Positions 14,701-58,758 of a stretch of 64,000 nt of DNA are shown here, one piece after another. The DNA comes from Eunapius fragilis (Eukaryota > Porifera > Demospongiae > Spongillida > Spongillidae), in the NCBI GenBank assembly GCA_963681505.1, contig OY811971.1, positions 19,106,369-19,170,368 of the forward strand. The letters are read 5' to 3'. The notes under the pieces are model-generated. The model ran no database searches. It was not told where the DNA came from and saw only the letters and a program-made list of their open reading frames with translations. Numbering within the stretch: the first letter of the stretch is position 1; each line of letters begins with the position of its first letter. The position numbers were made by a program, and so were the translations under genes.

Positions 14701-17700
14701 GTTGAGAAGGGAAGAGCCTTTGACTACATCAGGAGTATTGACCTCGTAGCCAATTATAAGCTGGGGGACGAAGGAGCTAAGGTTCTAGGTGAGCTGTACT
14801 GTACATTACAATACCAATTAATTTGCAAACCTAGCAACTTCCATAGGTTAACTGTGTCTATGCACACAATGCATAAGTCAGGCTATGTGCCCAGCTGACA
14901 GATTAGTGGAGAAAATGGGCTCACCTGAGCAATGACGTGCCATCCCTGACCAGTAGGCCGTAGGGACAATCTGCTTACCAAGCCAGAATGCTGGCCCTGG
15001 GTCTTCCAGTTAGACAGCTGATGGGGAAAAAGGGGCCATCCTTCATCAAAAGGTCCTGTTAACTAATGGTGGAGGCTACCAGCTGTGATTCCATGTAGTG
15101 GAGCCTATGCAATGTTGCTTGTATGGTCATGTGTGGGAAACTGAGGGTCACAGGCCCCAGATGGTGATGTCCTTACAATGGGCACTTAGACTGTCATATG
15201 AGGGGTAGGGGGTGTGGGGGCTGTCAACATACATAAGTACACTAATCCTGCAGGTCTTTGTTTAGTTACCATGGTAACTGGCTTGTGTGCATCCCATCCA
15301 TCAGTCCTGTAACAGCACAGTAGTTGTTGCTTGTGTATGAACTGACAGAGGGGAAGGGGTAATAATTCATAACAGTACCCCCAACCACTGTTAAGTCCAA
15401 ATAAGCCAGGCAAGTCTCACATGACCAACCCGATCATGACCACACCCCTCATTTGATCCATGCCAGGACTTTGGTCCAGGCTTGGTCCTCTAGTTAGAAG
15501 GTCAGCCCGGCAGGGACCCGCCCTGATCTCTCTAAAAGCAATGGGGAGTGCTGGGAGGGCTGCCTGTGTGTGTGCATATATTCTCACAAGCCATGGTACA
15601 CAAAGGAACAATTGGGTGGAAGAGGCTCACGTGCCCACCCCTGCTAGCTAAGGTGACCCCCTGTGTGGCCACAAGTACCTGGCCCCCTCCCCCAAGATGC
15701 TGTTGGGGGAATAGCAGGGCCAGACTAAACTCTATTTAGCTCCCTAAACCCATCACCACTGTTATGCATGCACTCAGGGTTAACACTTCACACCCACATG
15801 TATTAAGAAAGAATGTCATGTGGGTTGTAACAAAATGGAGGGGTGAGGGGTGTGGCTTAATATATCTTTATATTAAACAGTACCCTCTATGGTACAGGTG
15901 ATGGGATGGTGTGTGTGTGTCTGTGTGGGTGTGGGGAAGTGCAGTTTTTGGGTTGTGTGGTCCGCATACATAAGCCCACTAATCCTGCAGGTCTGTTTTG
16001 TCGCCAGTACATGTACGTCTCAAATTTATGTCTGCAACACATGTATAGCTTAATGATGTGGGGGAGTGCACCTTTTTGGGGTGTGTTGTCTTTTTTTTGT
16101 CGCCAGTACATCTCAAATTTATTTCTGTAACACATGTGTAGCTATAGCTTAATTGTGTTTAATTGTGATCAACTTTATTGCCATCCTTTATTACATCATA
16201 CCAGTGAGAATGTTGACAGAGAACAAGGTCCTCACAAAACTTCGACTTGAGAACTGTGGACTAGGTCCAGAGGGCCTTTTTGATGTCTGTGATGTCATCA
16301 GAATGAACACTACATTGACTTCACTAGACCTATCACGGAACACATTTGATGAACAAAGCATACCCAGCCTAGGTATGGTGGTGGTTATAAATGGTTTTAT
16401 GGTCCTCTTGTAATCAGATGTTATAAGTGTGTTCACCCTGTAACTAATTACAATTCCCTCAACCAGTGACCCCCCCCCTGTACTTGTTACTCAAAGGTCC
16501 CTTGAGTGATGCAGGTCACCAGCTGGGAATCCCTGTAGACCAAACACAAAGGAACAATTGGGTGGAAGAGGCTCACGTACCCACCCCTGCTAGCTAAGGT
16601 GACCCCCCTGAATGGCCACAAGCACCTGTCCCCCCTCCCCCTCCCCCTCCCCCAAGATGATGTTAGGGGAAAACCATGGCTCCACTGAACTCTGATTAGC
16701 TCCCTAAACAGTACTCTAAACCGTTAACCACTGTTAAGTCCTAATATGGTGCATAGCCGAGTAGGTCAAACCTCCTGTGACCAACCCAATCATGACCACA
16801 CCCTCATTTCATTTTAATATGTACACAAGTTGTACTGTTAAGTAACAAAATGGAGGGGTGAGGGGTGTGGCTTAATCTAAACAGTACCCTCTTTGGTACA
16901 GGTGATGGGATGGTGTGTGTGTGTGTGGGTATGGGGGAGTGCACCTTTTGGGGTGTGTTGTCTGCAGGACTTTTTTGTCGCCAGTACATCTCAAATTTAT
17001 TTCTGTAACACATGTGTAGCTATAGCTTAATTGTGTTTAATTGTGATCAACTTTATTGCCATCCTTTATTACATCATACCAGTGAGAATGTTGACAGAGA
17101 ACAAGGTCCTCACATCACTTGGACTTAAGCACTGTGGACTACGTCATAATGGCCTTATTGAAGTGTGTGATGTCATCAGAATGAACACTACATTGACTTC
17201 ACTATACCTATCAGTGAACACATTTGATGAACAAAGCATATCCAGCCTAGGTATGGTGGTGGTTATTAATGGTTTTATGGTCCTCTTGTAATCAGGTGTT
17301 ATAAGTGTGTTCACCCTGTAACTAATTACAATTCCCTCAACCAGTGACCCCCCCCCCTGTACTTGTTACTCAAAGGTCCCTTGAGTGATGCAGGTCACCA
17401 CCTAGGGATCCCTGTAGAGCAAACACAAAGGAACAATTGGGTGGAAGAGGCTCACGTGCTCACCCCTGCTAGCTAAGGTGAAGGTGACCCCACTGAGTGG
17501 CCACAAGCACCTGTCCCCCCCCCCCCTCCTCCCCCAAGATGATGTTAGGGGAAAACCATGGCTCCACTGAACTCTGATTAGCTCCCTAAACAGAACCTTA
17601 ACCGTTAACCACTGTAAAGTCCTAATATGGTGCATAGCCGAGTAGGTCAAACCTCCTGTGACCAACCCAATCATGACCACACCCACATTTCATTTTAATG

Positions 17701-20700
17701 TGTACACAAGTTGTACTGTTAAGTAACATAATGGAGGGGTGAGGGGTGTGGCTTAATCTAAACAGTACCCTCTGTGGTACGGGTGATGGGATGGTGTGTG
17801 TGTCTGTGTGGGTGTGGGGGAGTGCACCTTTTGGGGTGTGTTGTCTGCAGGTCTGTTTTGTCGCCAGTACATCTCAAATTTATTTCTGTAACACATGTGT
17901 AGCTATAGCTTAATTGTGTTTAATTGTGATCAACTTTATTGCCATCCTTTATTACATCATACCAGTGAGAATGTTGACAGAGAACAAGGTCCTCACATTT
18001 CTTGCACTTGTGAGCTGTGGACTAGGTCCAGAGGGCATTATTGAAGTCTGTGATGTCATCAGAATGAACACTACATTGACTTCACTAAACCTATCAGGGA
18101 ACACATTTGATGAACAAAGCATACGCAGCCTAGGTATGGTGGTGGTTATAAATGGTTTTATGGTTCTCTTGTAATCAGATGTTATCAGTGTGTTCACCCC
18201 TGTAACTAATTCCATTTCCCTCAACCAGTGACCCCCGTAATTGTTACTCAAGGGAAGGTCCCATGAGTGATGCAGGTCACCAGCTGGGAATCCCTGTGTA
18301 CCAAACCATGCATGGCTTGTTAGGACATGTGGGGGGAGACTTGGGGAGACAGGCACCAGATGGATGGAGGTGGAGGGTGGGTGATGGAAACAGGCGAAGC
18401 ACTGGGGAGTGCTGGGAGGGCTGCCTGTGTGTGTGCATATATTCTCACAAGCCATGGTACACAAAGGAACAATTGGGTGGAAGAGGCTCACGTACCCACC
18501 CCTGCTAGCTAAGGTGACCCCCTTGAGTGGCCACAAGCACCTGTCCCCCCCCCCCCCCACTTCCCCCAAGATGATATTAGGGGAAAACCATGGCTCCACT
18601 GAACTCTGATTAGCTCCCTAAACAGTACCCTAAACCGTTAACCACTGTTAAGTCCTAATATGGTGCATAGCCGAGTAGGTCAAACCTCCTGTGACCAACC
18701 CAATCATGACCACACCCACATTTCATTTTAATGTAACTTCCATAGGCTAATTGTGTCTATGCACCCAATGGTTAAGTCAGGCTATGTGCCCAGTTGACTG
18801 ATTAGTGGAGAAAATGGGCTCACCTGAGCAATGACGTGCCATCCCTGACCTGTAGGCCGTAGGGACAACATGCTTACCATGCCAGGATGCTGGTCCTGGA
18901 TCTTCCAGTTAGACAGCTGATGGGGAAAAATAGGGCCACCCCTCATCTAAAGGTCCTGTTAACTAGTGGTGGAGGCTACCAGCTGTGATTCCATGTAGTG
19001 GAGCCTATATGCAATGTTGCTTGTTAGGTCATGTGTGGGAAACTGAGGGTCACAGGCCCCAGATGGTGATGTCCTTACAATGGGCACTTAGACTGTCATA
19101 TGAGGGGTAGGGGGTGTGGTGGCAGTCAACATACATAAGTACACTAATCCTGCAGGTCTTTGTTTAGTTACCATGGTAACTGGCTTGTGTGCATCCCATC
19201 CATCAGTCCTGTAACAGCACAGTAGTTGTTCCTTGTGTATGGACTGACAGAGGGGAAGGGGTAATAATTCATAACAGTACTCCCAACCACTGTTAAGTCC
19301 AAATAAGCCAGGCAAGTCTCACATGACCAACCTGATCATGACCACACCCCTCATTCGATCCATGCCAGGACTTTGGTCGTGGCTTGGTCAACTAGTTAGA
19401 AGGTCAGCCCGGCAGGGACCTGCCCTGATCTCTCCTAAAGCACTGGGGAGTGCTGGGAGGGCTGCCTGTGTGTGTGCATATATTCTCACAAGCCATGGTA
19501 CACAAAGGAACAATTGGGTGGAAGAGGCTCACGTGCCCACCCCTGCTAGCTAAGGTGACCCCCTTGAGTGGCTACAACAACCTGTCCCCCTCCCCCCCTC
19601 CCCCAAGATGCTGTTAGGGGAATAGCAGAGCCAGACTAAACTCTATTTAGCTCTCTAAAACATAACCACTGTTATGCATGCACTCAGGGTTAACACTTCC
19701 CACCCACATGTATTAAGAAAGAATGAATTCATGTGTGTGTGGGTTGTAACAAAATGGAGGGGTGAGGGGTGTGGCTTAATATATCTTAATATTAAACAGT
19801 ACCCTCTATGGTACAGGTGATGGGATGGTGTGTGTGTCTGTGTGGGTGTGGGGGAGTGCACCTTTTGGGGGTGTGGTCCACATACATAAGCCCACTAATC
19901 CTGCAGGTCTATTTTGTCGCCAGTACATCTCAAATTTATTTCTGTAACACATGTGTAGCTATAGCTTAATTGTGTTTAATTGTGATCAACTTTATTGCCA
20001 TCCTTTATTACATCATACCAGTGAGAATGTTGACAGAGAACAAGGTCCTCACATCATTTGTACTTTGGTACTTTGGAGTAGGTCCAGAGGTCCTTATTGA
20101 AGTTTGTGATGTCATCAGAATGAACACTACATTGACTTCACTAGACCTATCATGGAACACATTTGATGAACAAAGCATACCCAGCCTAGGTATGGTGGTG
20201 GTTATAAATGGTTTTATGGTCCTCTTGTAATCAGATGTTATAAGTGTGTTCACCCCCGCAACTAATTACAATTCCCTCAACCAGTGACCCCCCCCCCTGT
20301 ACTTGTTACTCAAAGGTCCCTTGAGTGATGCAGGTCACCACCTAGGGATCCCTGTAGACCAAACACAAAGGAACAATTGGGTGGAAGAGGCTCACGTACC
20401 CACCCCTGCTAGCTAAGGTGAAGGTGACCCCACTGAGTGGCCACAAGCACCTGTCCCCCCCCCCCCCCTCCTCCCCCAAGATGATGTTAGGGGAAAACCA
20501 TGGCTCCACTGAACTCTGATTAGCTCCCTAAACAGTACCCTAAACCGTTAACCACTGTTAAGTCCTAATATGGTGCATAGCCGAGTAGGTCAAACCTCCT
20601 GTGACCAACCCAATCATGACCACACCCACATTTCATTTTAATGTGTACACAAGTTGTACTGTTAAGTAACAAAATGGAGGGGTGAGGGGTGTGGCTTAAT

Positions 20701-22692
20701 CTAAACAGTACCCTCTATGGTACAGGTGATGGGATGGTGTGTGTGTGTGTGGGTGTGGAGGAGTGCACCTTTTGGGGTGTGTTGTCTGCAGGACTTTTTT
20801 GTCGCCAGTACATCTCAAATTTATTTCTGTAACACATGTGTAGGTATAGCTTAATTGTGTTTAATTGTGATCAACTTTATTGCCATCCTTTATTACATCA
20901 TACCAGTGAGAATGTTGACAGAGAACAAGGTCCTCTCATCACTTCGACTTGGAGACTGTGGACTAGGTCCAGAGAGCCTTATTGAAGTCTGTGATCTCAT
21001 CAGAATGAACACTACATTGACTTCACTAGACCTATCAGGGAACAGATTTGATGAACAAAGCATACCCAGCCTAGGTACGGTAGTGGTTATAAATGGTTTT
21101 ATGGTCCTCTTGTAATCAGATGTTATAAGTGTTTACCACTGTAATTTATGATTAATTATCGTACCTAGTAACTTCCCCTAGCTGAGTGTTTGTAAACACC
21201 CGTCTCCCCTCCCCATGCTCCATCTGCTTTTCCCACGTGCCCGAATGGTGATTGGTGGCAGAAAGGACATGTGGGGGTGACTTGGGGAGACAGGCACCAG
21301 ATGGTGTTTCTGGTCATCAACTGGATGACGTGTGAGTCAAGCCAGGATGCTGGCCCAGGCTTGGGTCCCCGAGTTAGAAGGTCAAGCCACGTAGGGAACC
21401 GTCCTGGCTGTATTTAGCATTTGTTAGCATGACAGCTTATACATGTACACGAAATGACAAAATACACGGATGGGGGTACCAGGTGAAGAGGGGGTGGAGG
21501 GTGGGTAATACAAACAGGTGAGCTCTCCTGAAGCACTGGGGAGTGCTGGGAGAGCTACCTGTGTGTGTGTGTGCATATACTCTCTCATTTATATACAGCT
21601 GCCCCCCCCCCCCCCCACCACAAGATACTGATAGGGGAATACCAGGGCTCCATTAAATTCAGTTTAGCTTCCTAAACAGTACCCTAAACCACAACCAATT
21701 CTTATCCTGCCCGTACATATAAGTATTGTTAACTGAATGCATGATGTTAAGTATATGACATATTAAGTATATGCTTGTATGATGACGCCTCCTGTACTGT
21801 TAAGTACTACATACTCAGGTTTAACATTTCCCACTCACATGTCATATGAATGAATTTGCATAGGTGTGTGGACTGTAACAAAATGGAGGGGTGTGGGGTG
21901 TGGCTTAATCTAAACAGTACCCTCTATGGTACAGGTGATGGGATTGAGTGTGTTGGCTGTTAAGATAATGCCAGTAATGAGATACAAGGGGTGTGGCTAA
22001 AAATATCTGTATGTTAAACTGTGTGGTAGGGTGGAAGGGATGGGGAGGAGTACATGTATATCCCATGGGAAGGGATGGGGAGGAGTATAGGCATGCATAA
22101 CCCACTAGACAGTGTAGTCATCTTCGTTCAAGGGCTTTAGAGCCTTTGGGGGTAGGCTTGGCTTTTAGAGTGGTCCATGGTCATACCCTTGGAGGAGGAG
22201 GAGGTACTGGGAGGGTCACTGACCTCCTTTTTGTACATCATGAGAGCTAACTGCTAGTTCTTGTAACGACTGCAGTGGACCTTCTGTGTTCTGTCCTCAG
22301 TACCCTCCCTCCTGAGAGTAGGTGCTGTAGGGAAATAGGGGATGATGGGGGCTAGACTACCTCTGTAACCCCTCCCCCACCCCACCCCTCTATGAGAGCT
22401 GTCAGTACATATACCACCTGATGTGTCCTTATTCCATACCTCAGAACTATTACTCACCAATAACCAAACATTGGAAGAGCTGGACCTGCAGTCGTGTGGT
22501 CTGGATGATGATGCTATGTGTTCACTGGCCAGGGGTCTTAAACACTGTAAGCTGAAGAAACTGGACCTTTGCTACAATCTCTTCACCAAAAGAGGAGCTA
22601 GTGAACTTTATGAAGTGCTAAAGGATCATCCAACCCTTAAAAAAGAGATGGTAGAAATACCTTCTCACTTCAGTAGCCATGGCTACTATTGA
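11710..22692 (+). CDS. NLR immune receptor A (Death-NACHT-LRR), complete gene model
   Basis: Predicted cytosolic NOD-like receptor, 1059 residues. Exons: 11710-11986, 12291-12550, 12646-13405, 13603-13671, 13940-14101, 14225-14788, 16205-16372, 17083-17250, 17966-18133, 20022-20189, 20907-21074 and 22445-22692. All junctions are GT-AG and phases agree throughout. Residues 1-92 form a Death-like domain (YEFDWRRVGRRLLSD). A linker (MRYAKYLRSVY) follows. The NACHT domain has Walker A GIPGIGKST, Walker B VMLVLDGYDEL and sensor TVLVSSRPSA. A winged-helix region ends in YHFLHKTVQEFMAALYVS. Five tandem 56-residue two-LRR exons and a terminal LRR exon follow. Family knowledge: NACHT oligomerises after LRR ligand sensing and the Death domain recruits partners. 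Start chosen at the first ATG of the Death exon, in a context (GGTGAACATG) shared with gene B. Confidence 0.9.
13603..13671 (+). other. 69-nt phase-neutral mini-exon unique to NLR-A
   Basis: Between TTTATAG and a GTAAGT donor, this exon has phase 1 at both ends and encodes a basic linker containing PPGGKRRKYTKPVP. Skipping it keeps the frame, so it could be a cassette exon. NLR-B lacks it and instead has a longer end on the preceding exon. Confidence 0.6.
14789..16204. other. NLR-A intron of repeated blocks
   Basis: A 1.4-kb intron before the first array LRR exon. It contains sequence blocks shared by other NLR introns in both genes, for example the block around CAAAGGAACAATTGGGTGG at about 15,601, and the one around TACCATGGTAACTGGC at about 15,266. 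No exon or decayed LRR exon is seen in it. Confidence 0.65.
16205..16372 (+). other. LRR array exon A1
   Basis: 168 nt, phase 1-1, 56 residues, two LRRs. Residues at the variable sites: Lys12, Arg14, Glu16, Asn17, Gly24, Phe26, Asp27, Asp42, Arg45, Thr47, Pro54. Confidence 0.9.
17083..17250 (+). other. LRR array exon A2
   Basis: 168 nt, phase 1-1. Variable sites: Ser12, Gly14, Lys16, His17, Gly24, Ile26, Glu27, Tyr42, Val45, Thr47, Ser54. It alone carries RHN in place of the usual GPE at residues 21-23. Spacing from A1 is 878 bp. Confidence 0.9.
17966..18133 (+). other. LRR array exon A3
   Basis: 168 nt, phase 1-1. Variable sites: Phe12, Ala14, Val16, Ser17, Gly24, Ile26, Glu27, Asn42, Gly45, Thr47, Arg54. 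Spacing from A2 is 883 bp. Confidence 0.9.
18134..20021. other. Longer NLR-A intron between array exons A3 and A4
   Basis: About 1.9 kb. It contains the shared intron blocks plus an extra copy of the segment at 14,850-15,700, here at about 18,735-19,650. No coding exon is visible. Confidence 0.65.
20022..20189 (+). other. LRR array exon A4
   Basis: 168 nt, phase 1-1. Variable sites: Ser12, Val14, Trp16, Tyr17, Val24, Ile26, Glu27, Asp42, Trp45, Thr47, Pro54. The usual Leu13 and Cys18 are Phe, and Leu20 is Val. Confidence 0.9.
20907..21074 (+). other. LRR array exon A5
   Basis: 168 nt, phase 1-1. Variable sites: Ser12, Arg14, Gly16, Asp17, Ser24, Ile26, Glu27, Asp42, Gly45, Arg47, Pro54. Thr11 is Ser and Val31 is Leu. 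Spacing from A4 is 885 bp. Confidence 0.9.
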
Positions 22693-22979
22693 TTTTTTAT
22701 TTTTATAACTCTTATAATTCATGTCACCTGATTGTGGAAGGGGACAGCAGTATAAGGTCTTGGGGTTAGGGGTGTGGGGTGTGAGAATGTGCCCATGACT
22801 GGACAATGGTGATGTGGTAAGCATGTGCATGTAGTATTATAGAACATTTCAATGCATACGTCTGTTGTATAGTAATGCCCCCAGCCTGATATGCACCAGT
22901 GAGTTTGGGACCCAGATGAACAATCAATGCAGTGTAAGTGCTTCTGATCTGCAAGTGGCAATCTTTTCTTAGAGATGGT

Positions 22980-22995
22980 GGCTTTGAAAAAAGCC
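22980..22995 (-). promoter_or_regulatory. Histone mRNA 3' stem-loop of the H2B pseudogene, copy A
   Basis: Minus-strand GGCTTTTTTCAAAGCC forms a 6-bp stem with a TTTC loop and is followed by ACCA. This is the form of the replication-dependent histone stem-loop bound by SLBP. A purine-rich CTAAGAAAAGATT about 10 nt downstream fits the U7-binding histone downstream element. The hairpin appears intact although the coding region is not. Confidence 0.8.
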
Positions 22996-23291
22996 ATTAC
23001 AAAGATGGAGGGAGAGGGAAGGAGACCGTTTACCTCCTGCTGGTGTTCATGGTGACGACCTTTGTACTTCACTGACGTCATGTTTGGACAGCTCACCAGG
23101 TGGGTGGTGGGTGGACCTCCCATCTGGTGATGGTGACCCTCTAGAAGATGTAGTTGATGAAGGAGTTCATGATGCTCATGGCCTTGTTCTGGAGATGGTG
23201 GTGCCTGAGGTGGACCTGCTTGTAGATGAAGTAGGTCTCCTTGTGGAGCTTCTTGCTTCTCTCCCTTCTTACTAGCCATCTTTAGAGCCAT
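22980..23291 (-). pseudogene. Histone H2B pseudogene, copy A
   Basis: Read on the minus strand from 23,279 it starts MASKKGEK, then in another frame KLHKETYFIYKQV, KAMSIMNSFINYIF, a TAG stop, TITRWEV, and finally GELSKHDVSEV. These correspond in order to the H2B landmarks KETYAIYIYKVLKQVHPD, KAMSIMNSFVNDIFER, TITSREIQ and PGELAKHAVSEG. The alpha-2 to alpha-3 segment between IFER and TITSRE is deleted, and there is at least one frameshift and one stop. It cannot make H2B, although the 3' processing hairpin survives. It lies head-on to the 3' end of NLR-A. Confidence 0.85.
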
Positions 23292-23612
23292 CTTGATGAG
23301 CTGTGTTACTTGGAATCATTCCGCCTATATAGCTATTGTGGGATCAAAGTGGTGTGTACATAGAGGAATTGTTTTCAACTGACCGATTAGCAATACCATC
23401 CCAACAACAACTTGATACAAAGAAATGTTTTCTTAGGTGTACACGTAAGGATATTTCCAAACACAAGCTACAATTATATATTATCTCTGTATTGATGTAA
23501 CCGCATAAACACATTGCATGCTTGAGCTTTTAAAATGTGATGGTGAAAATGGTTACAAAAGCACGTGACCTCGAAGGTTTACTCCAGCTGAGGGCCCCGT
23601 ACAAATACTTAC

Positions 23613-24450
23613 CTGTGTACATGTTGCCCCGTCTGCATGCCTGAGCATAGCCAACAGCTTATCCAGGTAGGCCGTGTAGTTGGCACACATCCAGACGCAG
23701 CAGGATTGGTCCGCCTCGTTATCGCGCGCCCCCTATCCGACGGCGCGATGGCTCATCCAGGGGCAGGTGGTGGTGATGAGGCGACAGTATGTGGAGCAGA
23801 GGATCGTGACACACTCCTTGAGCACGAGGAGACTGTCTGACTGCGGTACATAGGAACTTATAGTTGGTTGGAGAGGGCCGGGGGCGGGATAGTGACGTAC
23901 CAGGAGGCCCGTATGCATCAAGCAGTGGAGTTTCGTACAACGTTTTCGCTTTCACCTCCAAAACTTCTCTGATTAACAACGACCAGTTAGGACAATCAAC
24001 ACGTACAGATTATTGAAATTTAGTGCACACAATTATTGGAACTATTTTTTATAATAACCACGACACAGCTGGAGGTAGCGACGGACCATATCCAAGTGGA
24101 GGGTTCTCCCTAGCTCATAAGTTATTTCATCGTCATGCATGCATATATATGCTAGGATGCTGCAAATGGCGGTCCAGAGGTCTGCAGATGTTTTAAGTTA
24201 TCGGCGGACATGATGACGTCCGACATGAAGCTGTAGACTAGCAGCAGCTGAAGCGAGTGTTCTCCCTAGATCATGTAAGCTACACCCCTGGCCCCATGTG
24301 GGGTTACCTCCTTCAGCCCAGAGAAGACAGGGGTGGTGTTTGTGCAGGGGAGGGAGGAGATCCACGTGTTGGTGAGCAGTCTGCATGCCTACCCCTGCAT
24401 GTTGGGAGGTTTTGGGCACACCCTCTCCTCCACATGGTTACTGAGGATGG
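23613..24450 (-). pseudogene. Unidentified gene X, several exons with stops, copy A
   Basis: Minus-strand coding segments of an unrecognised, possibly helical-repeat protein. The best exon is 23613-23840, 76 codons between a GTACCGCAG acceptor and a CACAG/GTAAGT donor. It has the frame SDSLLVLKECVTILCS through CVWMCANYTAYLDKLLAML, broken by one TAG after SHRAVG. Upstream pieces read LLTNTWISSLPCTNTT (about 24,330-24,390), LLLVYSFMSDVIMSADN (about 24,200-24,250) and LWTAICSILAYICMHDDE (about 24,120-24,180). The last two are out of frame by one base. It is probably a pseudogene. The same stop is in copy B, so the break predates the block duplication. Confidence 0.5.
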
Positions 24451-25212
24451 AGAAACACAGAAGTTGTGACTGTGAATTACTGGTTAGCTCCTAAAAGGAT
24501 GGGAATTTATCTAATGTGAGTGTGTTGAAGGGTCCCCTAATGGTGTCTCCCCTCTCCCCTCCCCCTCTCCTCTTTCCCCTCTCCTCTGCCCCTGCCGTGG
24601 TTAAGGGATAGCTTAATGGAAAGGTTGTGTTGTTAAGAGAGATATCACCTCTCCCCCCTCCCCATCCCACCCCACACCTCTACTCCTCCCACGTCCTCTC
24701 AGAAACCCCTCCCCTTGTACCTGATGTCTGTAATTATCATCTGACGGCCATTCATCCAATGAATGGTATTTGCCAATATCCATTTCTTCTTTTTCATCTA
24801 ACTTGAAGTGTTTTGCCCCCAGGCTGACAATCTTGTGGTTAGTGTAGCACTTCAGCTGAAGGTGAGTATTTTTATATGGTGGTTCAAAATGCACTATGTG
24901 TGTCATGGGTTAGGCATAGCCTCACACCACCCTCCCTCCTTTCCCTCTCCCCTTCCACCACCCCAGACCCAATACCCTGGTCTAGTGTGCTACATGTAAG
25001 CCTTCACCCCTAGCTCCTTGTTCCTTCTTTCCCTCCCAATGGTTGCCATGTCACTGTTTTTTGCGTTTGGTTTAAAACCATACCTATTTTTGTCTGTACA
25101 CAGCAAACACACATATCACACCCCCCCCCCCCAAAAGATAGTCCATTGTTGTCTATTCTAAATAAAGCACACCTTTAGCACGTACAACACTGATATCCTT
25201 TTGTTGCTTCAG
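24451..25212. other. Non-coding stretch with one 39-nt exon-like unit
   Basis: C/T-rich runs (24,540-24,600, 24,640-24,720 and 24,930-24,970) and no full gene. At 24,823-24,861 an acceptor, 13 open codons (ADNLVVSVALQLK) and a GTGAGT donor form a micro-exon-like unit, repeated exactly in length at 57,796-57,834 and partly near 1,889 and 63,258. The gene is unknown. Confidence 0.35.
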
Positions 25213-25373
25213 ATGTAATTTTGTCACGACAACAAGCAGAGCCTCCAGAAGAAAGGATAATACCACACAAGTGGAGAATGATGGTGTACAGCCAGGACAC
25301 TCCCACTTTGACGAGTCCCCATGCCATAAAGGCAGCAAGTGGCTGCAACATGTTAATGCAGTACCCTCAAAAG
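25213..25373 (+). other. 161-nt exon-like segment, single copy
   Basis: Between TTGCTTCAG and AAG/GTTAGC. Two frames are open across it, one containing PPEERIIPHKWRMMVYSQD and the other ESPCHKGSKWLQHV. I cannot choose between them and do not recognise either. No counterpart was found at the matching place beyond block B. Confidence 0.35.
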
Positions 25374-25604
25374 GTTAGCATGTGGCTTGGGGCATTTGGT
25401 GGGATGAGGTAGACCTGTTCCATTATGTCTTCACATCCCCTCTCTTTTCATTTCCAACAAACATATGGTGGTGTACATGTATGTGATGGCAGTGTGTTGG
25501 GTCATCTTGTGTGTCTTATTTCCTTACCTTTTTGTGCACTGGTTGGGAGGACAGCTTATTGCCACAAGTTGAAATGACCTATTCACAGTTTTTATTATTG
25601 TGCG

Positions 25605-25646
<42 letters not shown>

Positions 25647-26021
25647 TGTGTGTGCCCAACAGAACAGTTTTGTGTTGGACGTACAACTTATAATTGTGTG
25701 TATGTTGTGACTGATATTCAAGTTATCATGTGTGAATTTGAGGGGGGAGGTGGTGATGGTGTGGTCAGGGGATAGGAGGGAGTCATTAGCTGGTTTGAAT
25801 GGCATGACATCTGGCATGGTTTACTACGTGATGTATATGTGTTGTGTGTGGATTAGCTGTATGGGGATGGTGTATAAGGAGATATATGGGGAGGAGGGTG
25901 GGGGTAGGGTGTGTGGTTTGGCTGGTGGGTGTGATGTCTCACCTCCAGCTGTACACACTAATAATTCAGTAAATCCTATTAATTTGTACCTCTACCTTGT
26001 AATATTAGGCATAGCGTACCC
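25374..26021. other. Inter-block non-coding sequence
   Basis: Contains a (GT)n run at about 25,612-25,655 and sequence related to 3,330-3,600 and 1,920-2,140. It lies at the junction between blocks A and B. No gene seen. Confidence 0.55.
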
Positions 26022-26203
26022 CCTCCTCTCTGCTAAATATTACCCTCCCCTCTCCCCCTCTTTCCCTCCCCTCCTCCTCCCCTCCTCCTCCCTCCCTCTG
26101 CCCCTCCCCTCCCTCCCCTCGGTCCCTTCCCTCCTCTGGTCCCCCTCTTCCCCCTCCCCTCCTCTCTACCCCCTTCTTCCCCTCTTCCCCTCTTCTCTGC
26201 ACA
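26022..26203. repeat. Polypyrimidine tract, start of block B
   Basis: About 180 bases of C/T, the shorter counterpart of 2,161-2,475. Confidence 0.88.
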
Positions 26204-26261
26204 TTTATAAAATGGTACCCACCTCCTTATTTCCTTATTTCTTGTCTCTCTCTAATCACAG

Positions 26262-26412
26262 GACAGTAGCCATCAATATGGACACATCACTCCTCCTCAC
26301 CAGTGTACCCACCACCACACTCTGGAGGGTCTGCCCATAGGATGGGGGAGGTGGCCCAGTGTGTCCCCCTCCCTTCCTACACTGCAGGGGGATTGGCCAG
26401 GTCTATTGTCAC
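26262..26412 (+). other. 151-nt exon-like repeat, copy 3
   Basis: Same unit as at 2,546, with acceptor and GTAAGG donor intact. Product not recognised. Confidence 0.35.
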
Positions 26413-26686
26413 GTAAGGGGGCTTGCCTGCTGAAGCTATAAATTAATTTCCATGGCGATGGAGAGCTCCATTATTGTAAGTGTGTGTGTGTGTGTGTGTG
26501 TTTGTATGTACATGTATGTGTGAACATGTGTGTGTACATGATTGTGTGTGTGTATGTGTGTTGGGTACATGTACCTGAGATCAGGTCAGTGGCATGTACA
26601 GTATAGGGGGCCGGGTTAGTAACCAAGGAAACCTGCAAAATAGCTAATCCACTAGGTGGATAACCACACCCCCTGTGTATGCCCAG

Positions 26687-26741
26687 GAAGGTGATGAGGT
26701 ACATGTATATCTTACACCATGTGTGGTGTGTGTCCAGGCTC
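26687..26741 (+). other. Truncated copy of the 133-nt exon-like segment
   Basis: Matches 3,166 onward through VMRYMYILHHVWCVSRL and then breaks off abruptly at the edge of the novel 1.4-kb sequence that follows. Confidence 0.4.
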
Positions 26742-26756
26742 CCGGGTGAAAAATTT

Positions 26757-26910
26757 CGCGTTGCAACGCGTTGCAACGCGTTGCGCGGCGTTAATGAGCA
26801 CGGTTACGTTCGACGACTTCGCAACGCGTTGCTACGCGTTGCCACGCGTTGCCACGCTAGAAAAATGTCCCTTTTTAACGCCACGCGCGTGGCAACGCGT
26901 TGCAACGCTT
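26757..26910. repeat. Cluster of GCAACGCGTTGC palindromes
   Basis: At least eight overlapping copies of GCAACGCGTTGC or one-base variants such as GCCACGCGTTGC. Each is its own reverse complement or nearly so. CpG density is far above the rest of the window. Confidence 0.85.
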
Positions 26911-27159
26911 AGGCTTATAACAAAATTCATAGCATTGGGATAACGTTGCGTCGATGAATATTTTTTATTGTTACTATATATATAGTAATGAAATCGAATG
27001 AAATTGATATCTTTGTTTATAATTTCTACAGCCATGACATATACAACAAAACAATGTCCCTTTTATGCCTTGGACGGGTCAGGCTGGGTCTTCATCCATT
27101 ACAGTGGAGATAGTTGGAGCTAGGGGGTAATAGTTGGAGGGGTAAAAATTGGCATGGAT

Positions 27160-27735
27160 GTAATGTTTACAACAATTACCACCATGGTGGACATCCTGCA
27201 ACACTTGGCTTCAACCTGTGTGATATTCAAAACGTTGCACACCATACACATAGCAAACTGTACCCACTTGGAGGACACTATAGAGGCATCCTGTTAAGAA
27301 AGGCAACACTTGGCTTCAACCTGTGTGATATTCAAAACGTTGCACACCATACACATAGCAAACTGTACCCACTTGGAGGACACTATAGAGGCATCCTGTT
27401 AAGAAAGGCAACACTTTCTAAATGTTGCACATCATACACAAAGCAGTACCCATGTAACTTACCACAAGATGCCAAAAGAACCATGCACTCTAAGACTCCA
27501 TGTTGGATATCCTGTAAGAAAGGCAAACTTGGCTTCAAACAATTGCAACCTGTGTGATATTCTAAATGTTGCACATCATACACATAGCAGCACCCATTGA
27601 ACTTACCACACATTGCCAAGATATAAGAAGCACTATGCACAGGAGGCCACTTTTATAGTCACCTGTAGGAAAGGCAACACTTAACTTCAAACAACCTGTG
27701 CGATATTCTAAATGTTGCACACCATTCACAAAAAG
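27160..27735. repeat. 105-bp tandem repeat, two exact plus about three diverged units
   Basis: Units at 27,201-27,305 and 27,306-27,410 appear identical, starting ACACTTGGCTTCAACCTGTG. Diverged units continue from 27,411 with recurrent GTGTGATATTCTAAATGTTG. Confidence 0.85.
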
Positions 27736-28186
27736 GTGAAGACATACCTGCAGAACAACAAAATAGATCTCAGGTGCATTCAAAAGATCGCAGACCAAAA
27801 CTCTGTAAACATACATGTACACTAAACTCTATACGGGCTTCCGCAATTAGATACACTTACGCTCCGCAACTGGGTAGCAAGATACAAAATTGCTCACTTC
27901 GTAATTCTTCTTGTTGACCTGAAGAAATGTACGATTGAGCGCCAAGCTACTACGTAAAAAGGAATTAGTATATAACGTACGCTGTTTTTCCAATCCGTAT
28001 ATGACAATGTGTATAACTGACGGTGAGACCATGGCCGTATACGCAGTTCTACACCGTTATACGCAATGTGTATGACAGATTATGTATAACAGCGTGTATA
28101 ACAATGTTATGCCGAGGGGTATAACATTATTCATACTCCCAGTTGTCATGTATCCTATGGTAACCTCCTACATGTACTAGCCCATC

Positions 28187-29263
28187 CCCCTCCCTCCCTC
28201 TTCCCCCTCCCCTCCCCTCTTCCTCCTCCCCTCCCCTCCCCTCTTCCTCCTCCCTCCCCTCTCCTCTTCCCCCTCCTTCCCCTCTTCCCCTCCCCTCCCC
28301 TCGTCCCCCTTCCCCTACCCCTCCTCCCCCTCCCCTCCTCCCCCTCCCCTCCCCTCCTCCCCTCCCTCCTCCCCCTCCCCCTCTTCCCACTCCCCCTCTT
28401 CCCCCTCCCCTCCCCTCTTCCCCCACCCCTACCCTCCCCTCCCCTCCCCTCTTCCCCTCCCCTCCCCTCTTCCCCCTCCCCTCCCCTCTTCCCCTCCCCT
28501 CCCCTCTTCCCAGTCCCCTCCCCTCTTCCCCTCACCTCTTCCCCTCCCCTCCCCTCCCCTCTCCCCTCTTCCCCCTCCCTCCCCTCCTCCCCCTCCCCTC
28601 CCCTCTTCCCCTCCCCTCCCCTCTTCCCCTCCCCCTCCCCTCTTCCCCTCCCCTCCCCTCTTCCCCTCCCCTCCCCTCTTCCCCCTCCCCTCCCCTCTTC
28701 CCCCTCCCCTCTTCCCCCTCCCCTCTTCCCCCTCCCCTCTTCCCCCTCCCCTCCCCTCTTCCCACTACCCTCTTCCCCCTCCCCTCCCCTCTTCCCCCTC
28801 CCCTCCCCTCTTCCCCCTCCCCTCCCCTCTTCCCCCTCCCCTCCCCTCTTCCTTTCCCCTCCCCTCTTCCCCTTCCCCTCTCCCCTCTTCCCCCTCCCCT
28901 CTTCCCCCTCCCCTCCCCTCTTCCCCTCCCCTCCCCTCTTCTCCCTCCCCTCCCCTCTTCCCCCTCCCCTCTTCCCCCTCCCCTCCCCTCTTCCCCCTCC
29001 CCTCCCCTCTTCCCCTCCCTCCCCTCTTCCCCCTCCTTCCCCTCTTCCCCCTCCCTCCCCTCTTCCCCCTCCCCTCCCCTCTTCCCCTCCCTTCCCCTCT
29101 TCCCCTCCCCTCCCCTCTTCCCCCTCCCCTCTCCCCTCTTCCCCCTCCCCTCTTTCCCCTCCCCTCCCCTTTTCCCCTCCCTCCCCTCTTCCCCCTCCCC
29201 TTCCCTCTTCCCCTTCCCCTCCCCTCTGCCCCCTTTCCTCCCTTTTTCCCCTCTTTCTCTGCA
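28187..29263. repeat. Long polypyrimidine tract, block B
   Basis: About 1.08 kb of C/T sequence, the counterpart of 4,010-5,155, with the same CCCCTCTTCC units in a different arrangement. Long glycine-arginine ORFs on minus are artefacts. Confidence 0.93.
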
Positions 29264-29330
29264 CGTTTGATTAATATAAAATGGTACCCACCTCCTTATT
29301 TCTTTATTTCTTGTCTCTCTCTCATCACAG

Positions 29331-29481
29331 GACAGTAGCCATCAATATGGACACATCACTCCTCCCCACCAGTGTACCCACCACCACACTCTGGAGGGTC
29401 TGCCCATAGGATGGGGGAGGTGGCCCAGTGTGTCCCCCTCCCTTCCTACACTGCAGGGGGATTGCTCAGGTCTATTGTCAC
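29331..29481 (+). other. 151-nt exon-like repeat, copy 4
   Basis: Fourth copy of the 2,546 unit, immediately after the long tract, with both splice-like ends intact. Confidence 0.35.
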
Positions 29482-29568
29482 GTAAGGGGACTTGCCTGCT
29501 GTCGGCTGAATCTATTAATTAATTTCCATGGCGATGGAGGGCTCCATAATTGTCCACCTCTTCCCCAG

Positions 29569-29760
29569 GCCTAAACCGATACCTTGGAGGGAAAGGGATA
29601 CCTATTCACTGTGTGGGCACTTTTAGGTGCTACCTGGTGTACTTCAGGTCTACCACCATGCTATAGAGAACTTGGTCACCAATGCACTATTGCAAAATGG
29701 CACTCTCCCATCATGAGGGAGCTATCCACGTCCACAGACCAACCCAACATGTGATTTCAT
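29569..29760 (+). other. Exon-like fragment, third copy
   Basis: Copy of the 2,784 fragment. It has a small deletion near 29,622 and a two-base gain near 29,663 relative to 2,784, so the frame is not preserved. Confidence 0.25.
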
Positions 29761-30192
29761 CTTTTATTGGACATCTTAAAATGTAAGTCCATTGGTCGTG
29801 TGTGTACATTGTGTGTATGTATGCACAAAATGCAGTGTGCACTTGTTCAGGGATAATGGTGGGAAGGCTGTAATGTGTCATAATGTGTTTGGTATGTGTT
29901 TACGTACATGTACATGTCCACACAACACATACATGTATGTTAAAGCTAGATAGCCAGCCACCCTCCTGGTCATAAGTCTGGTGTGGAGATGGCCATCCTC
30001 CTGGTCATAGGTCATGTTGATGGAACAATATCCAAAGATTAGTTGTTTTTGTAAATTTACAGGCCTCTGTGTAATGCTTTCTGTATGGTTTGTTATAACA
30101 GCTGGAATAATCTACTGAGATATTAATTCATTTATGTGCATTTAACTAACATGGAGGCGGGGCACCTTGCATGTCACCTTGGCTGTACCTAG

Positions 30193-33100
30193 TGAGGAGG
30201 AGAGGAAGCAAACCAAGAGAGGGGCCAGAGGTGGAGGTGTGCTGTCCTTTGACTTTGACGGGGACGATGAGGAAGAGGAGAGGGGAGGAGGTGGAGGGAA
30301 GGAAGTGGACAAAGAGAAGGCTGAGGGTACAACACTGCTTCAGTTCTATGAGCAGGTGCTTACCCCTATCCGTCTCTCCCTCCTGCATCCCTCCCTAGAC
30401 TCTCCTCCATCTTTCAAGAAGAAGAAGATGACCAAGAACCCCACTGTGGACACCTCCTTCCTCCCTGATAAGGAGCGGGAGGTCAGTGTGGCCCCGCCCC
30501 CTACCAACCCCTAGTGGTGACCTGGGATGTTAGATCTCTCCTTACAGGAGGCAGAGCAGCAGGAGAGAGAACGTCTGAGGAAGGAGTGGTTGGAGAAACA
30601 AGAGAAGATCAAGAGTGAGTGTGTGATACCCTTACAGGGGAGTGCTATGTGGAGGGGTGTACTATGTGGAGGTGTGCTAAGTGGAGAGGAGTGTACTGTG
30701 GAGGTGTGTATTGTGGAGATTTTTGCTATGTGAAGGTGTGTATTATGAGGAGGTGTGCTATGTGGAGGTGAGTGCCTCCTCATAGTACACATCTCCACAC
30801 AGCACACACCTCCATACTGGCTCCACATACCACACACCTCCACACAGCACACACCTCCACATAGCACATACCTCCACATGCCACACACCTCCACATAACG
30901 TACATGTACCTCAACATACCACACACCTCGATAGCTGTGTGTGCTGTGTGGAAGTGTGTTCTGTAGGATGTGTTATGTGGAAGTGTGTACTATGTGGAGG
31001 TGTGTGCTAGTGGAGGTGTATACTGTGTGGAGGTGTGTTCTGTGGGATGTGTTATGTGGAAGTGTGTACTATGTGGAGGTGTGTGCTATGTGGAGGTATG
31101 TGCTATGTGGAGGTGTGTGCTATGTGGAGGTGTGTGCTATGTGGAGGTGTGTACTATGTGGAGGTGTGTGCTATGTGGAGGTGTGTGCTAGTGGAGGTGT
31201 ATACTGTGTGGAGGTGTGTTCTGTGGGATGTGTTATGTGGAAGTGTGTACTATGTGGAGGTGTGTGCTACATGTATGTGGAGGTATGTGCTATGTGGAGG
31301 TGTGTGCTATGTGGAGGTGTGTGCTATGTGGAGGTGTGTACTATGTGGAGGTGTGTGCTATGTGGAGGTGTGTGCTATGTGGACATAGCACACGCCTCCA
31401 CATAGCACACACCTCCACATAGCACAGACCCCTCACAGTACCTTCAGTGCAGTGTGTGTGCTGAACTATGCGGAGGTGTGTTATGTGGAAATTTGCTTTT
31501 CTGGAGGTGTGTTCTATCTATATGGAGGTGAGTGCTATTTGGAGTTCTGTGCTGTGTGGAGGTGTGTGTTGTGGATGTGTGGGCTGTGTGGGTGTGCATT
31601 GTCAGGGTTCGTACAGAATTAAATCATTCAATAAATGAAAGTTAATTAAAAACTTGATCAATTATTTAGGCTTTGCCCCGTGTCGCTTTAGTCTTTTAAC
31701 CCCTCCCCACCCCAAAATCTGAATGCGTTGCTTCCCTGCATATATATCTACATGTACATTATAACGTACTACAGGCCTGGGGATGAGATAGTGTAACTGT
31801 TGTGTACAAGCTATTGGTATGTAATGGTTTGCTCTGATGTGCACATCTATTATAAAGTATATACACGTGTGGTTTAAACATTATTAGCATTAAGATGACC
31901 ACATTAATATGTGTACGTGCCCTGCTTGTGGAGGTGTTTGTTGTTATGTGGTGGTCTTCCCCTCAACCCCTGTGTTGTTATGTGATGGTCTTCCCCTCAA
32001 CCCCTGTGTTGTTATGTGGTGGTCTCCCCCTCAACCCCTGTGTTGTTATGTGGTGGTCTCCCCCTCAACCCCTGTGTTGTTATGTGATGGTCTCTCCCCT
32101 CAACCCTTGTGTTGTTATGTGGTGGTCTTCCCCTCAACCCCTGTGTTGTTATGTGGTGGTCTCCCCCTCAACCCCTGTGTTGTTATGTGATGGTCTTCCC
32201 CTCAACCCCTGTGTTGTTATGTGGTGGTCTCCCCCTCAACCCCTGTGTTGTTATGTGGTGGTCTTCCCCTCAACCCCTGTGTTGTTATGTGGTGGTCTCC
32301 CCCTCAACCCCTGTGTTGTTATGTGGTGGTCTTCCCCTTATGTGTTGCCTTTATGTAGATGAGGATATTGACATCACCTACAGTTACTGGGATGGCTCGG
32401 GTCATCGTAAGCATGTGCAGGTGAGAGAGAACATGTGCACGTGTGTAGGTGTGGTCTAAGTAGATGTACATGTTAGAGGGTGTGGTCTGGGAACATGTGC
32501 ACGTGAGTAGGTGTGGTCTAAGTAGATGTACATGTTAGGGGGTGTGGTCTGGGAACATGTGCACGTGAGTAGGTGTGGTCTAAGTAGATGTACATGTTAG
32601 GGTGTGTGGTCTGGGAACATGTGCTGCTTGTGAGGGTGTGTTCAGGGTTTTCCCTTGTTGCCTTCAGATGAAAAAAGGTGACACCATACGAATGTTTCTT
32701 CAGAAATGCCTTGAAAGCCTGAGAAAGGACTTTTCAGAGCTGAGGTATGTAACAAGCATTTGCTACCTGTTCCCATCGCCATGGCGATGTGTTTTAATGT
32801 CTATTCTATCATGGGTACATTTGTCTACCGCTGTGTACAGAAAGTAAATTTATTCACACTCTGCCAGTTTAACATTCCTTTTACACTTGACGGTACGTCC
32901 TCGTTGTACAGTTCCTTTAGAACTTGGCCCAAAATTGCCAAAGGTATAATTCTTTTTCTTTATACTAACTACACGTATCACGGTGAAATAGCTTTACCTT
33001 GAAGCTCTGGCTTAGAACCAAAGAAAAAGAATTATACCTTTGGCAATTTTGGGCCAAGCTCTAAAGGAACTGTACAAAGAGCACGTACTGTCAAATGTTA

Positions 33101-34549
33101 ATGTGAATAAATTTGTTTTCTGCACAATGCTGTAGACAAATGGAGACACCCTGTACGTTAGAAAATGATTGATCAGCGTTCATGTTGATTGCACAGGCAT
33201 GTTGAAGGCTCCAGGGCACTTATGGCATTTATGGGTAGTGTAAAAATATTCAACTCCAGCTATGCAACTACTGTACCACCAATTAGTGCAGTTGCCATCG
33301 TCAATGCACGCACACACATGATGGCGTTATGTTTTTTCCCTCCACTGAACATCAGGGCAGCTGGTCCAGACAGTCTTATTTATGTGAAGGAAGACCTGAT
33401 CATTCCTCAGGTACTGGGTGTGGTGAAGGATAGCCACGCCCCCTGATCATCTTGTCCCCATTCCATGCAGCATCATTCTTTCTATGACTTCATAGTCACA
33501 AAGGCTAGGGGCAAGAGTGGTGAGTGATGGTGGGACCTTGGTGAGGGGGTGGGGTCAGGTGATTAGTCAGGTGACTTTCCATCACCCAGGTCCTCTCTTT
33601 AGCTTTGATGTCCACGAGGATGTGAGGATGGTGAACGATGCCAGCCTTGAGAAGGATGAGGTCTGCTTGGGACTGGGGAGGAGGTGTATATAAGGGGAGG
33701 AACTGGTGTAGGTTATGGAGGTCATAATAACCTTTTTACCCTTACCTCTTCCCTTATCTGAGTGTATCCCTCTTCCCTTACCTGAATGTATCCCTCTTCC
33801 CTTACCTGAATGTATCCCTCTTCCCTTACCTGAATGTACATGTATCCCTCTTCTCTTACCTGAGTGTATCCCTCTTCTTTCCATGGCAACAGTCTCATGC
33901 AGGCAAGGTGTGTCTAAGGAGCTGGTATGAACGCAACAAACATATCTTTCCCGCCAGTCGGTGGGAACCTTATGACCCAACTAAGAACTGGGATAAATAC
34001 ACAGTATGTGCATTTAACCGCTATAATTATTGTATGTCTATATGCATGTACATGTATATGGGATCATGGCAGCGAAAAGGGACCTAGCTCATAATTATTT
34101 CATATTCAAAGGGACACCTTTGTCCTCTACAACTTCTTTCTTACATACTGGAAAATAGTCTGTCCATCATGGGGCCTCATTTTTTAATAATGCGTACATT
34201 TTAATAGCTATCATCAACTTTGATGCTCCTTCCTGGAAAATGCGCTAGGTCCCTTTTCCCTGCATGTATGCATGTATGTATGTATGTATGTATGTATGTA
34301 TGTATGTATGCATGTATGTATGTATGTATGTATGTATGTACGCATGTATGTATGGTTTAATACCTATTATCACCTTTAGATTGCTGACAAGGATAAGGAC
34401 TGATGTATTCATCTTGGCGATGGACTTTCTATTAGAACATTCACTGCACACAACAGTGAACACACACTTGTATATTGGTATAAGTTATTTGTTTACTATG
34501 CAGCTGCCTCCTCCTCTGTTGTTCTTATCTGCAGATCTTCAAAAAATAA
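30193..34549 (+). CDS. FAM50: FAM50/XAP5-like protein copy B, 5' part missing
   Basis: Nuclear FAM50/XAP5 family, linked to pre-mRNA splicing. Exons: 30193-30481, 30548-30614, 32359-32420, 32668-32744, 33356-33410, 33471-33519, 33590-33660, 33893-34003 and 34535-34549. They join in one frame: acidic region after [108 protein letters not shown] and a terminal KYTIFKK followed by TAA. About 264 residues are encoded, against roughly 340 for the vertebrate protein. Exons for the first ~120 residues (basic coiled-coil) are not found in the 5 kb upstream. It is either a 5'-truncated duplicate or its first exons lie elsewhere. AATAAA overlaps the stop and may be the poly(A) signal. Confidence 0.85.
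30640..31440. repeat. 17-bp minisatellite, copy B
   Basis: Long array of CTATGTGGAGGTGTGTG units in the FAM50-B intron, with short inverted stretches at 30,775-30,900 and 31,383-31,430 that can pair with the main array. Val-Glu-Val-Cys ORFs across it are artefacts. Confidence 0.85.
31938..32336. repeat. 34-bp minisatellite, about 12 units
   Basis: Same unit as 7,512-7,674 but expanded to about 12 copies, ending just before the FAM50-B exon at 32,359. Confidence 0.92.
32810..33153. mobile_element. Hairpin MITE in FAM50 intron, copy B
   Basis: Counterpart of 8,708-9,050 with the same long inverted arms. The left end reads CATGGG rather than CAGGGG. Confidence 0.72.
34069..34263. mobile_element. 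MITE with AAAAGGGACCTAGC ends, copy B
   Basis: Counterpart of 9,911-10,104, again directly before the ATGT array. Confidence 0.75.
34264..34353. repeat. (ATGT)n microsatellite, copy B
   Basis: About 22 units with occasional ATGC and ACGC variants, shorter than in block A. Confidence 0.95.
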
Positions 34550-34602
34550 AGTGACCAATTTTCTCCTGACCTGACGATCATTTACTTGCCAACAAGCCAA
34601 TG

Positions 34603-35000
34603 GAGCTCACACAGGGTGGTTCATTGGAGCTCACACAGGGTGGTTCATTGGAGCTCACACAGGGTGGTTCATTGGAGCTCACACAGGGTGGTTCATTGGA
34701 GCTCACACAGGGTGGTTCATTGGAGCTCACACAGGGTGGTTCATTGGAGCTCACACAGGGTGGTTCATTGGAGCTCACACACGGTGGTTCATTGGAGCTC
34801 ACACAGGGTGGTTCATTGGAGCTCACACAGGGTGGTTCATTGGAGCTCACACAGGGTGGTTCACACAGGGTGGTTCATTGTGGCTCACACAGGATGGTTC
34901 ATTGGAGCTCACACAGGGTGGTTCATTGGAGCTCACACAGGGTGGTTCGTTGGAGCTCACACAGGGTGGTTCATTGGAGCTCACACAGGGTGGTTCATTG
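34603..35000. repeat. 24-bp minisatellite, about 17 units, copy B
   Basis: Same unit as at 10,506. A shortened unit near 34,860 shifts the register. In B the array lies after the FAM50 stop and is untranslated. Confidence 0.95.
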
Positions 35001-35225
35001 CACCTTTGTTCATTCATACGGCTACAATATCTTGTAATTTAGTAGTGGTGCAGTTTAAATACTAGTGGGAGCAGTTAGAATACTAGGTCGTCACCAAGAC
35101 GACAAGGCCAAGGTGATCGGATCGGCTGAATTGGGACATCCAAATTAAACTGCCCACGTCCGGTTTTGTTTGCGCGACCACAAGACCACTGTATAGTATA
35201 TTTTTGCCTAGCTGTTGAGGTGAAC

Positions 35226-35287
35226 TTGGTGTGCAGTGAGGAAAACATCTACAAAATTACTGGATATGACTTTGATCGAGTTGAATA
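35226..35287 (+). pseudogene. Truncated extra first NLR exon, copy B
   Basis: Counterpart of 11,163-11,222. The start codon is TTG and the frame ends at TAA after about 20 codons. No palindrome is inserted here, so this gives the pre-insertion sequence for copy A. Confidence 0.65.
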
Positions 35288-35757
35288 ACGAATTGAAATA
35301 TGAATTAACAACGTGTTCACGGCCTAACATACGTATACGTAGATCTCTTTTTGTTACATATTACTTTATCCGGCCGGTATACCATAGTCCTAGACTCACT
35401 ATTAAAATATGGTTCTTGTAGCTTGCTAGACTGATGATAAACACGGCCACCCTGACTCACCTACGAGCATAAGCACTTCCATTGACAGGTACCCGAGCAC
35501 GGCGGGCAACAGTTCAATAAAAGTGCACTTAACACCGCAACGTAACAACGCGGAGGTTTAACGTAAACCATAGAGACAATATCTTCAGAGATAATATATT
35601 AACTCTGACTGAACATGTTCATAGATATTTGATGACATGTTCCAACAACGGTTGCAACGCCGTTCGGTACTGGAATCGGGTCTTTAATTAAATCCTGCCC
35701 CACCCGTTCTCGCGCGACCCCCGTATTTGCCTAATACCTGCAGCTGTTGAGGTGAAC

Positions 35758-49877
<14,120 letters not shown>

Positions 49878-58458: not shown

Positions 58459-58521
<63 letters not shown>

Positions 58522-58757: not shown

Positions 58758-58758
<1 letters not shown>

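Follow-up and report, generated by a model that had tools for sequence, protein, structure and literature searches.

Uniform LRR exons with diversified concave-face codons in Death-NACHT-LRR genes of the sponge Eunapius fragilis

Introduction

LRR modules with a variable concave face are familiar from the lamprey VLRs, secreted or anchored receptors that are assembled somatically. A first-pass annotation of the sponge locus described here likened it to these receptors; concave-face variety is present in both, somatic assembly is a feature of the VLRs, and the comparison is not supported beyond analogy, the sponge copies being exons of one assembly that lie in open reading frames.

For brown algae, the available portions of PMC11378527 describe LRR-ROCO (and NB-ARC-TPR) genes with tandem LRR exons of constant length and a single phase, for which exon shuffling was inferred, and, in LRR-ROCO, positive selection at concave residues under M2/M8. 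The sponge cassettes share with LRR-ROCO the tandem, constant-length, one-phase LRR exons and the selected concave residues, but differ in three respects: the LRR-ROCO genes carry a ROC-COR GTPase and the sponge genes Death-NACHT; the LRR-ROCO exon is a phase-2 exon of 72 nt coding for one LRR, the sponge exon one of 168 nt coding for two; and alternative splicing has been reported for LRR-ROCO, whereas the sponge exons are known from genomic sequence alone (PMC11378527). Fungal NLRs, e.g., those of Podospora, have internally conserved WD, ANK and TPR repeats with positively selected concave sites (PMC4986451, available portions). They resemble the sponge genes in being NOD-type receptors with near-identical repeats, concerted evolution and exchange between genes; however, the fungal set, as presented in those portions, is without LRR motifs, whereas the two-LRR unit of the sponge is an exon of its own between introns (PMC4986451).

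Among animals, the zebrafish NLR-B30.2 genes also form clusters with gene conversion and a selected recognition domain, but according to the available portions of PMC4852459 the selection falls in B30.2, with the LRRs judged not particularly variable, whereas in the sponge it falls in the LRRs. Mammalian NLRP3 has similarly modular, frame-preserving exons, of 171 nt and with two LRRs of 28/29 residues; near-identical copies with hypervariable codons, as present in the sponge, are not described for NLRP exons in the available portions of PMC11352923. The expanded NLR family of Dysidea avara includes the same Death-NACHT-LRR architecture as the genes treated here, and the words selection, exon, tandem and hypervariab are absent from the main text of that source as available (PMC12909245). 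The literature searched held no report of near-identical LRR cassettes with concave-face selection in an animal NLR, and more may be contained in two studies known through citation, that of Amphimedon NLRs by Yuen et al. 2014 (cited in PMC4986451) and that by Zambounis et al. 2012 (PMC3341825; cited in PMC11378527). Near-identical receptor repeats with selected concave sites are, then, known from fungal NLRs, and one-LRR exon cassettes with selected concave residues from brown algae; what is apparently new is the combination of near-identical LRR cassettes and concave-face selection in an animal NLR.

Data and conventions

The window is a stretch of 64 kb on contig C1 (19106369-19170368), and the genome searched comprised 219 Mb in 24 contigs; all results for the window cluster come from one genome assembly. 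Codons of the LRR exon are numbered such that the number in the first-pass annotation equals ours plus one, so that the eleven variable codons named there are 11, 13, 15, 16, 23, 25, 26, 41, 44, 46 and 53. Because these had been picked by eye, ten concave codons of the xxLxLxx motif, set beforehand from the LRR consensus, were used as well. The codon models and the concave-share, distance and distinct-state statistics used the 14 intact copies of the cluster, leaving out the copy at 82245 (9-nt deletion) and that at -24308 (stop); a set of 15 copies used for pN/pS kept the stop copy.

Genes of the cluster

The window holds two genes with Death, NACHT, HD2-like and LRR parts, A at 11.7-22.7 kb and B at 35.8-49.9 kb, both on the + strand. 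A third, C, in which tblastn finds these parts as well, is situated beyond the right edge of the window, at 76.3-89.8 kb in window numbering. Judged by their sequence, A and B (and C by tblastn) are predicted to be tandem intracellular receptors of Death-NACHT-LRR architecture. Gene A has an N-terminal Death-domain exon (approximately 11704..11997; Pfam Death E 2.1e-5), which by tblastn has 74% identity to residues 1-94 of Ephydatia muelleri Em0001g2887a. A Death-to-NACHT piece found by tblastn with the same protein (approximately 12299..12550) follows, a Pfam scan of 12272-12550 giving no match, and then the NACHT exon (approximately 12643..13410; Pfam NACHT E 3.6e-21). The HD2 exon (14225..14788), the 3' end of which consists of LRR-like repeats, continues in frame into five LRR exons (16205..16372, 17083..17250, 17966..18133, 20022..20189 and 20907..21074) and a last LRR exon that reaches an in-frame stop (22445..22692); no stop interrupts the reading of these exons, from HD2 onward, before that point, with a Pfam LRR_6 match, under splicing predicted from the sequence. 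Gene B is laid out likewise on the + strand, with a Death-domain exon (approximately 35758..36045; Pfam Death E 5.4e-6, and tblastn), a pre-NACHT and NACHT stretch (approximately 36651..37748; Pfam NACHT E 6.4e-22, and tblastn), an HD2 exon placed by Pfam scan, reading frame and comparison between genes (38155..38724), four LRR exons (40213..40380, 42379..42546, 44410..44577 and 48062..48229) and a last LRR exon placed by tblastn and reading frame up to its in-frame stop (49645..49877).

The Death domain scores above the Pfam cut-off of 22.6 in both A (25.0 bits) and B (26.9 bits), that of gene C being found by tblastn only, and the NLRC4_HD2 scores, 25.0 bits in A and 26.8 in B, are both under the curated cut-off of 33.1. 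The named relatives of the NACHT exon are from Ephydatia muelleri, and the LRR array matches, by sequence, ribonuclease inhibitor and NLRP LRRs in PDB. Nine pieces of A and B (Death, pre-NACHT, NACHT, HD2 and LRR) gave no Pfam match to a ROC or COR domain at E 0.001.

Between genes A, B and C, pN/pS rises toward the LRR end: it is 0.16-0.19 in the Death domain, 0.26-0.35 in the pre-NACHT piece (one stop codon in the script-picked frame of gene C being skipped), 0.28-0.54 in NACHT (gene A against B 0.42, against C 0.54), 0.59-0.94 in the HD2 exon and 1.06-1.84 in the last LRR exon.

Pairs of matching minisatellites (4020-5148 and 28185-29251; 7513-7673 and 31939-32338; 10504-10937 and 34601-35000) are spaced about 24 kb apart, as are the Death exons (11710 and 35758), so that A and B have the look of a single unit of about 24 kb duplicated in tandem. 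An ORF on the - strand downstream of gene A (22719-23291), without a match in a Pfam scan, has a similar stretch near 50190-50467 downstream of gene B. Farther right, the ORFs 58705-58980 (+) and 59557-59832 (-) have an identical translation and 58074-58421 (-) shares a stretch with 60284-60640 (+), so that 58074-60640 is an inverted repeat around CA-rich sequence and perhaps a mobile element. The end of a 98-aa ORF (62739-63035, -) seems to resemble the C-terminal part of tyrosine recombinases from DIRS/Crypton-like elements.

The LRR exon cassette

Sixteen copies of the LRR exon were found in 180 kb: 14 in the three genes (five in A, four in B and five in C in this assembly) and two to the left of the window, one of these with a stop (-24308). 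The exon is 168 nt long in 15 of the 16, the copy at 82245 having a 9-nt deletion, and each codes for two 28-residue LRRs, i.e., a 56-residue unit, with the same phase at both ends and a border codon split after its first base. The nine 168-nt exons of the window with their variable codons, as first described, are real: the borders are correct, with AG and GTA flanking all nine, and each of the eleven named codons varies. The mean nucleotide difference among the 16 exons is 8.9%, and eight units have 78-85% protein identity to the first. The sponge units thus do not reach the more than 85% identity over at least 100 residues by which the available text of PMC4986451 defines the fungal repeats, while positive selection at repeat surface positions, as in fungal-type NLR repeats, is found in the sponge exons.

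Replacement and silent change

The earlier impression of few synonymous changes is borne out by the counts. In the nine window copies, all 39 distinct states at the eleven codons are replacements and none is silent, and the other 44 codons have 14 replacement and 3 silent states, against a neutral one-step mutational opportunity of 2.91:1; in the 14 intact copies the ratios are 42:1 and 20:9. The codon series quoted for positions 13 and 16 (14 and 17 in the original numbering) are exact, and the third base is constant in all 14 copies at codons 13, 16, 23 and 41. Over all codons of the nine copies pN/pS is 3.45, with 7.4 in the eleven and 1.39 elsewhere; outside the named codons it is 0.72 in the 15-copy set. 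The near-identity claimed for the rest of the exon needs correcting, as variation within the nine copies extends to 14 of the remaining 44 codons, mostly in a single copy.

With the ten concave codons set from the consensus, replacement and silent states number 29 and 0 in nine copies (p 0.0005 against the opportunity) and 33 and 2 in fourteen (p 0.007), these Fisher tests on minimum states being rough, since opportunities or codons enter them as counts. Set directly against the rest of the exon, the concave codons give p 0.11 (nine) and 0.09 (fourteen), a weaker contrast that is partly due to the fast codons 22, 23 and 26, which lie outside the strands. Outside the ten concave codons pN/pS is 2.3 (nine copies) and 1.3 (fourteen), and the replacement excess is thus not purely concave. 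Transitions and transversions among the distinct derived states number 13:26 in the fast codons, 14:17 in the other exon codons and 13:15 in the near flanks; an AID/APOBEC-like spectrum is rejected, as there is no transition bias.

Replacement differences are centred on the concave strands, with a share of 0.524 in nine copies (p 8e-5) and 0.531 in fourteen (p 7e-5) where 0.182 is expected, and this share is never matched when the motif is shifted by 1-8 codons, the next best being 0.40 and 0.45 at +3. The fast codons are 11, 13, 15 and 16 in the first LRR and 41 and 44 in the second, where 38, 39 and 43 are constant in nine copies. The claim that the variation is confined to surface positions thus holds as a centring on concave strand codons but not as confinement, since 22, 23, 25, 26, 46 and 53 are non-strand. 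The LRRs that frame the array, those closing the HD2 exon and those of the last exon, also differ between genes at xLxLxx strand positions.

Codon models, run with custom simplified scripts on scaled trees rather than PAML and assuming a tree, which exchange between copies violates, favour M2a over M1a by 2dlnL 76 (FastTree tree, omega 12) and 136 (star, omega 17) in 14 copies and by 81 (star, omega 24) in the nine of the window, with omega of 12-24 assigned to about 20% of codons. The dN/dS at the variable sites is accordingly far above 1, rather than near or below it. Both 14-copy runs return codons 11, 13, 15, 16, 22, 23, 26, 41, 44 and 46 as positive; most of the codons first named are among the fast ones, to which codon 22 (originally 23) has to be added, and 25 and 53 (originally 26 and 54) are non-significant. 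In a two-class model with a free silent rate, selection-only is ahead of a neutral hotspot by 17.0 lnL (star) and 10.2 (tree) in 14 copies, and the fast class shows no raised silent rate (0 on the star, 0.94 on the tree).

Flanks and exchange between copies

The flanking introns had been called nearly invariant, which is true from about -110 to +45 nt of the exon and fails farther out, where the full set of 16 copies shows a pairwise p of 0.20 at -400..-200 and of 0.24 at +61..+200 and indels are numerous. Over the 91 pairs of 14 copies, the distance is 0.299 for the fast codons and 0.033 for the remaining exon sequence; it is 0.026 and 0.034 in the near flanks upstream and downstream, and 0.169 and 0.248 in the far flanks. 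The near introns have thus diverged about one-tenth as much as the variable codons, rather than equally.

The fast-codon distance is alike within genes (0.307) and between them (0.296), whereas the far-intron distance is greater between than within genes, at 0.185 versus 0.118 upstream and 0.278 versus 0.153 downstream. Exon distance does not rise with far-intron distance (rho -0.26 to -0.05 over 91 pairs), and on visual inspection the introns downstream of this one cassette are of two kinds, which occur intermixed across the genes. A uniform cassette with distances independent of the far introns is the pattern that an exon-centred exchange of short tracts would leave behind; the conservation of the near flanks may owe something to selection on splice signals as well.

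The C5 array and related arrays

A sample of nine exons on contig C5 (four in L030, five in L032-L036), picked from the 83 matches of one search of the genome, another having given 79, belongs to another subfamily with its own flanks. L033, whose exon end was poorly aligned, is omitted from the final flank figures for C5. Its four most variable codons are 13, 44, 15 and 16 and its concave share is 0.485 (p 0.0008), but silent change is raised too, with pS of 0.24 in the concave codons versus 0.06 outside and an overall pN/pS of 0.90. The distinct silent states number 7 in the ten concave codons and 5 in the rest, with the last codon set constant in all nine (Fisher p 0.009, again rough). In the codon model, run over 54 codons, M2a is still ahead of M1a (2dlnL 34 and 26), and in the two-class model the neutral hotspot is ahead of selection-only by 13.3 and 4.2 lnL. 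As the silent changes are raised at the same codons, selection alone does not describe the whole family. It is possible, and the reading we favour, that old divergence is retained at selected codons and erased around them by exchange; multi-nucleotide changes or local hypermutation are possible sources as well.

Further arrays on C15, C1 at 22.35 Mb, C4 and C5 at 5.75 Mb were viewed in translation only. On C15, the locus L029 (G000:C15:3930001-3940000) packs 12 matches into 10 kb; its exons, of this same type, have diverged far more, and one carries a stop. In Ephydatia muelleri, the proteins Em0003g1742a (four units) and Em0069g4a (three full and one partial) contain the same 56-residue units, varying at the protein level at strand positions such as 13, 15, 16 and 41 plus some others. 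The ENA records P0123, P0125 and P0129 are predicted NACHT proteins of great length. Their many 28-residue LRRs are near-identical, to the eye differ mainly at strand positions, and perhaps represent the same design in one reading frame.

Evaluation of explanations

The cluster is probably explained by germline diversifying selection together with exon-centred exchange. With the same phase at both ends of the exon, the gain, loss or exchange of copies would leave the reading frame intact. Exchange of short tracts around the exon, by gene conversion or unequal crossing-over, would keep uniform across the genes a cassette made up of the exon, about 110 nt before it and about 45 nt after it, and diversifying selection would keep replacing the concave-face residues 11, 13, 15 and 16 of the first LRR and 41 and 44 of the second, acting also at a few non-strand positions (22, 23, 26 and 46). 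Conversion is the homogenising process we infer; the diversification may be driven by microbial or other non-self ligands, as the NLR architecture suggests, and the concave face would bind the ligand directly. The first-pass annotation had proposed just such a selected recognition surface with a homogenised remainder, which finds support in the window cluster; in the C5 array, with its raised silent changes, selection alone falls short.

One alternative is a combinatorial repertoire, in which alternative splicing or somatic exchange of the exons gives each animal many receptors. The shared length of 15 of the 16 copies, their common phase and splice borders and the near-identical near flanks would suit it, as would the alternative splicing reported for the brown-algal LRR-ROCO exon arrays (PMC11378527) and described for the LRR exons of NLRP3 (PMC11352923), both in the portions available. 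However, all five exons of gene A stand in one open frame and the gene models of E. muelleri join consecutive units, and we regard this reading as rather unlikely. Improbable, too, is an anticipatory repertoire in which pre-diversified cassettes are selected by splicing, or swapped somatically or in the germline, on an unchanging Death-NACHT base, with a local mutation process at the same codons in addition, the last being hinted at by the raised silent changes of the C5 array.

Local hypermutation at these codons, under ordinary or weak selection, could also make variety. In the C5 array the silent and replacement rates of the fast class are both about 7-18 times the silent rate of the slow class and silent states concentrate at concave codons (the rough p of 0.009 given above), as such a process would have it; yet in the window cluster the 39 distinct states of the eleven codons include no silent one, third bases are constant in 14 of 14 copies at the four codons listed earlier, and selection-only has a lead of 10-17 lnL, which together make hypermutation quite improbable. 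Ordinary recent tandem duplication with relaxed LRR constraint, the concave positions being merely tolerant, would agree with a pN/pS near 1 outside the named codons (1.39 in nine copies, 0.72 in fifteen), but relaxation cannot exceed the neutral rate, and the fast codons run at about ten times the near-intron rate with omega far above 1; this very improbable reading is already contradicted for the window cluster. Template-copied mutagenesis of the diversity-generating-retroelement kind, changing only bases where the template has A, is hardly conceivable and is rejected on the base pattern, for beyond a superficial resemblance in NNC and NNA codons with a fixed third base, A is never seen in 7 of the 23 columns whose minor states occur in at least two copies and 37 of 53 consensus A bases are invariant in 14 copies.

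Significance

The cluster is an animal case, from an early-branching phylum, of the layout known from fungal NLRs and brown-algal LRR-ROCOs, with a uniform repeat scaffold and a few fast binding-face codons, organised as modular exons inside an NLR. The shortness of the cassette makes exchange, copy number and splicing directly testable. As B30.2 was named the recognition module in zebrafish, with the LRRs little variable (available portions of PMC4852459), selection on the concave face of the sponge LRRs bears on how direct recognition by NLRs evolved.
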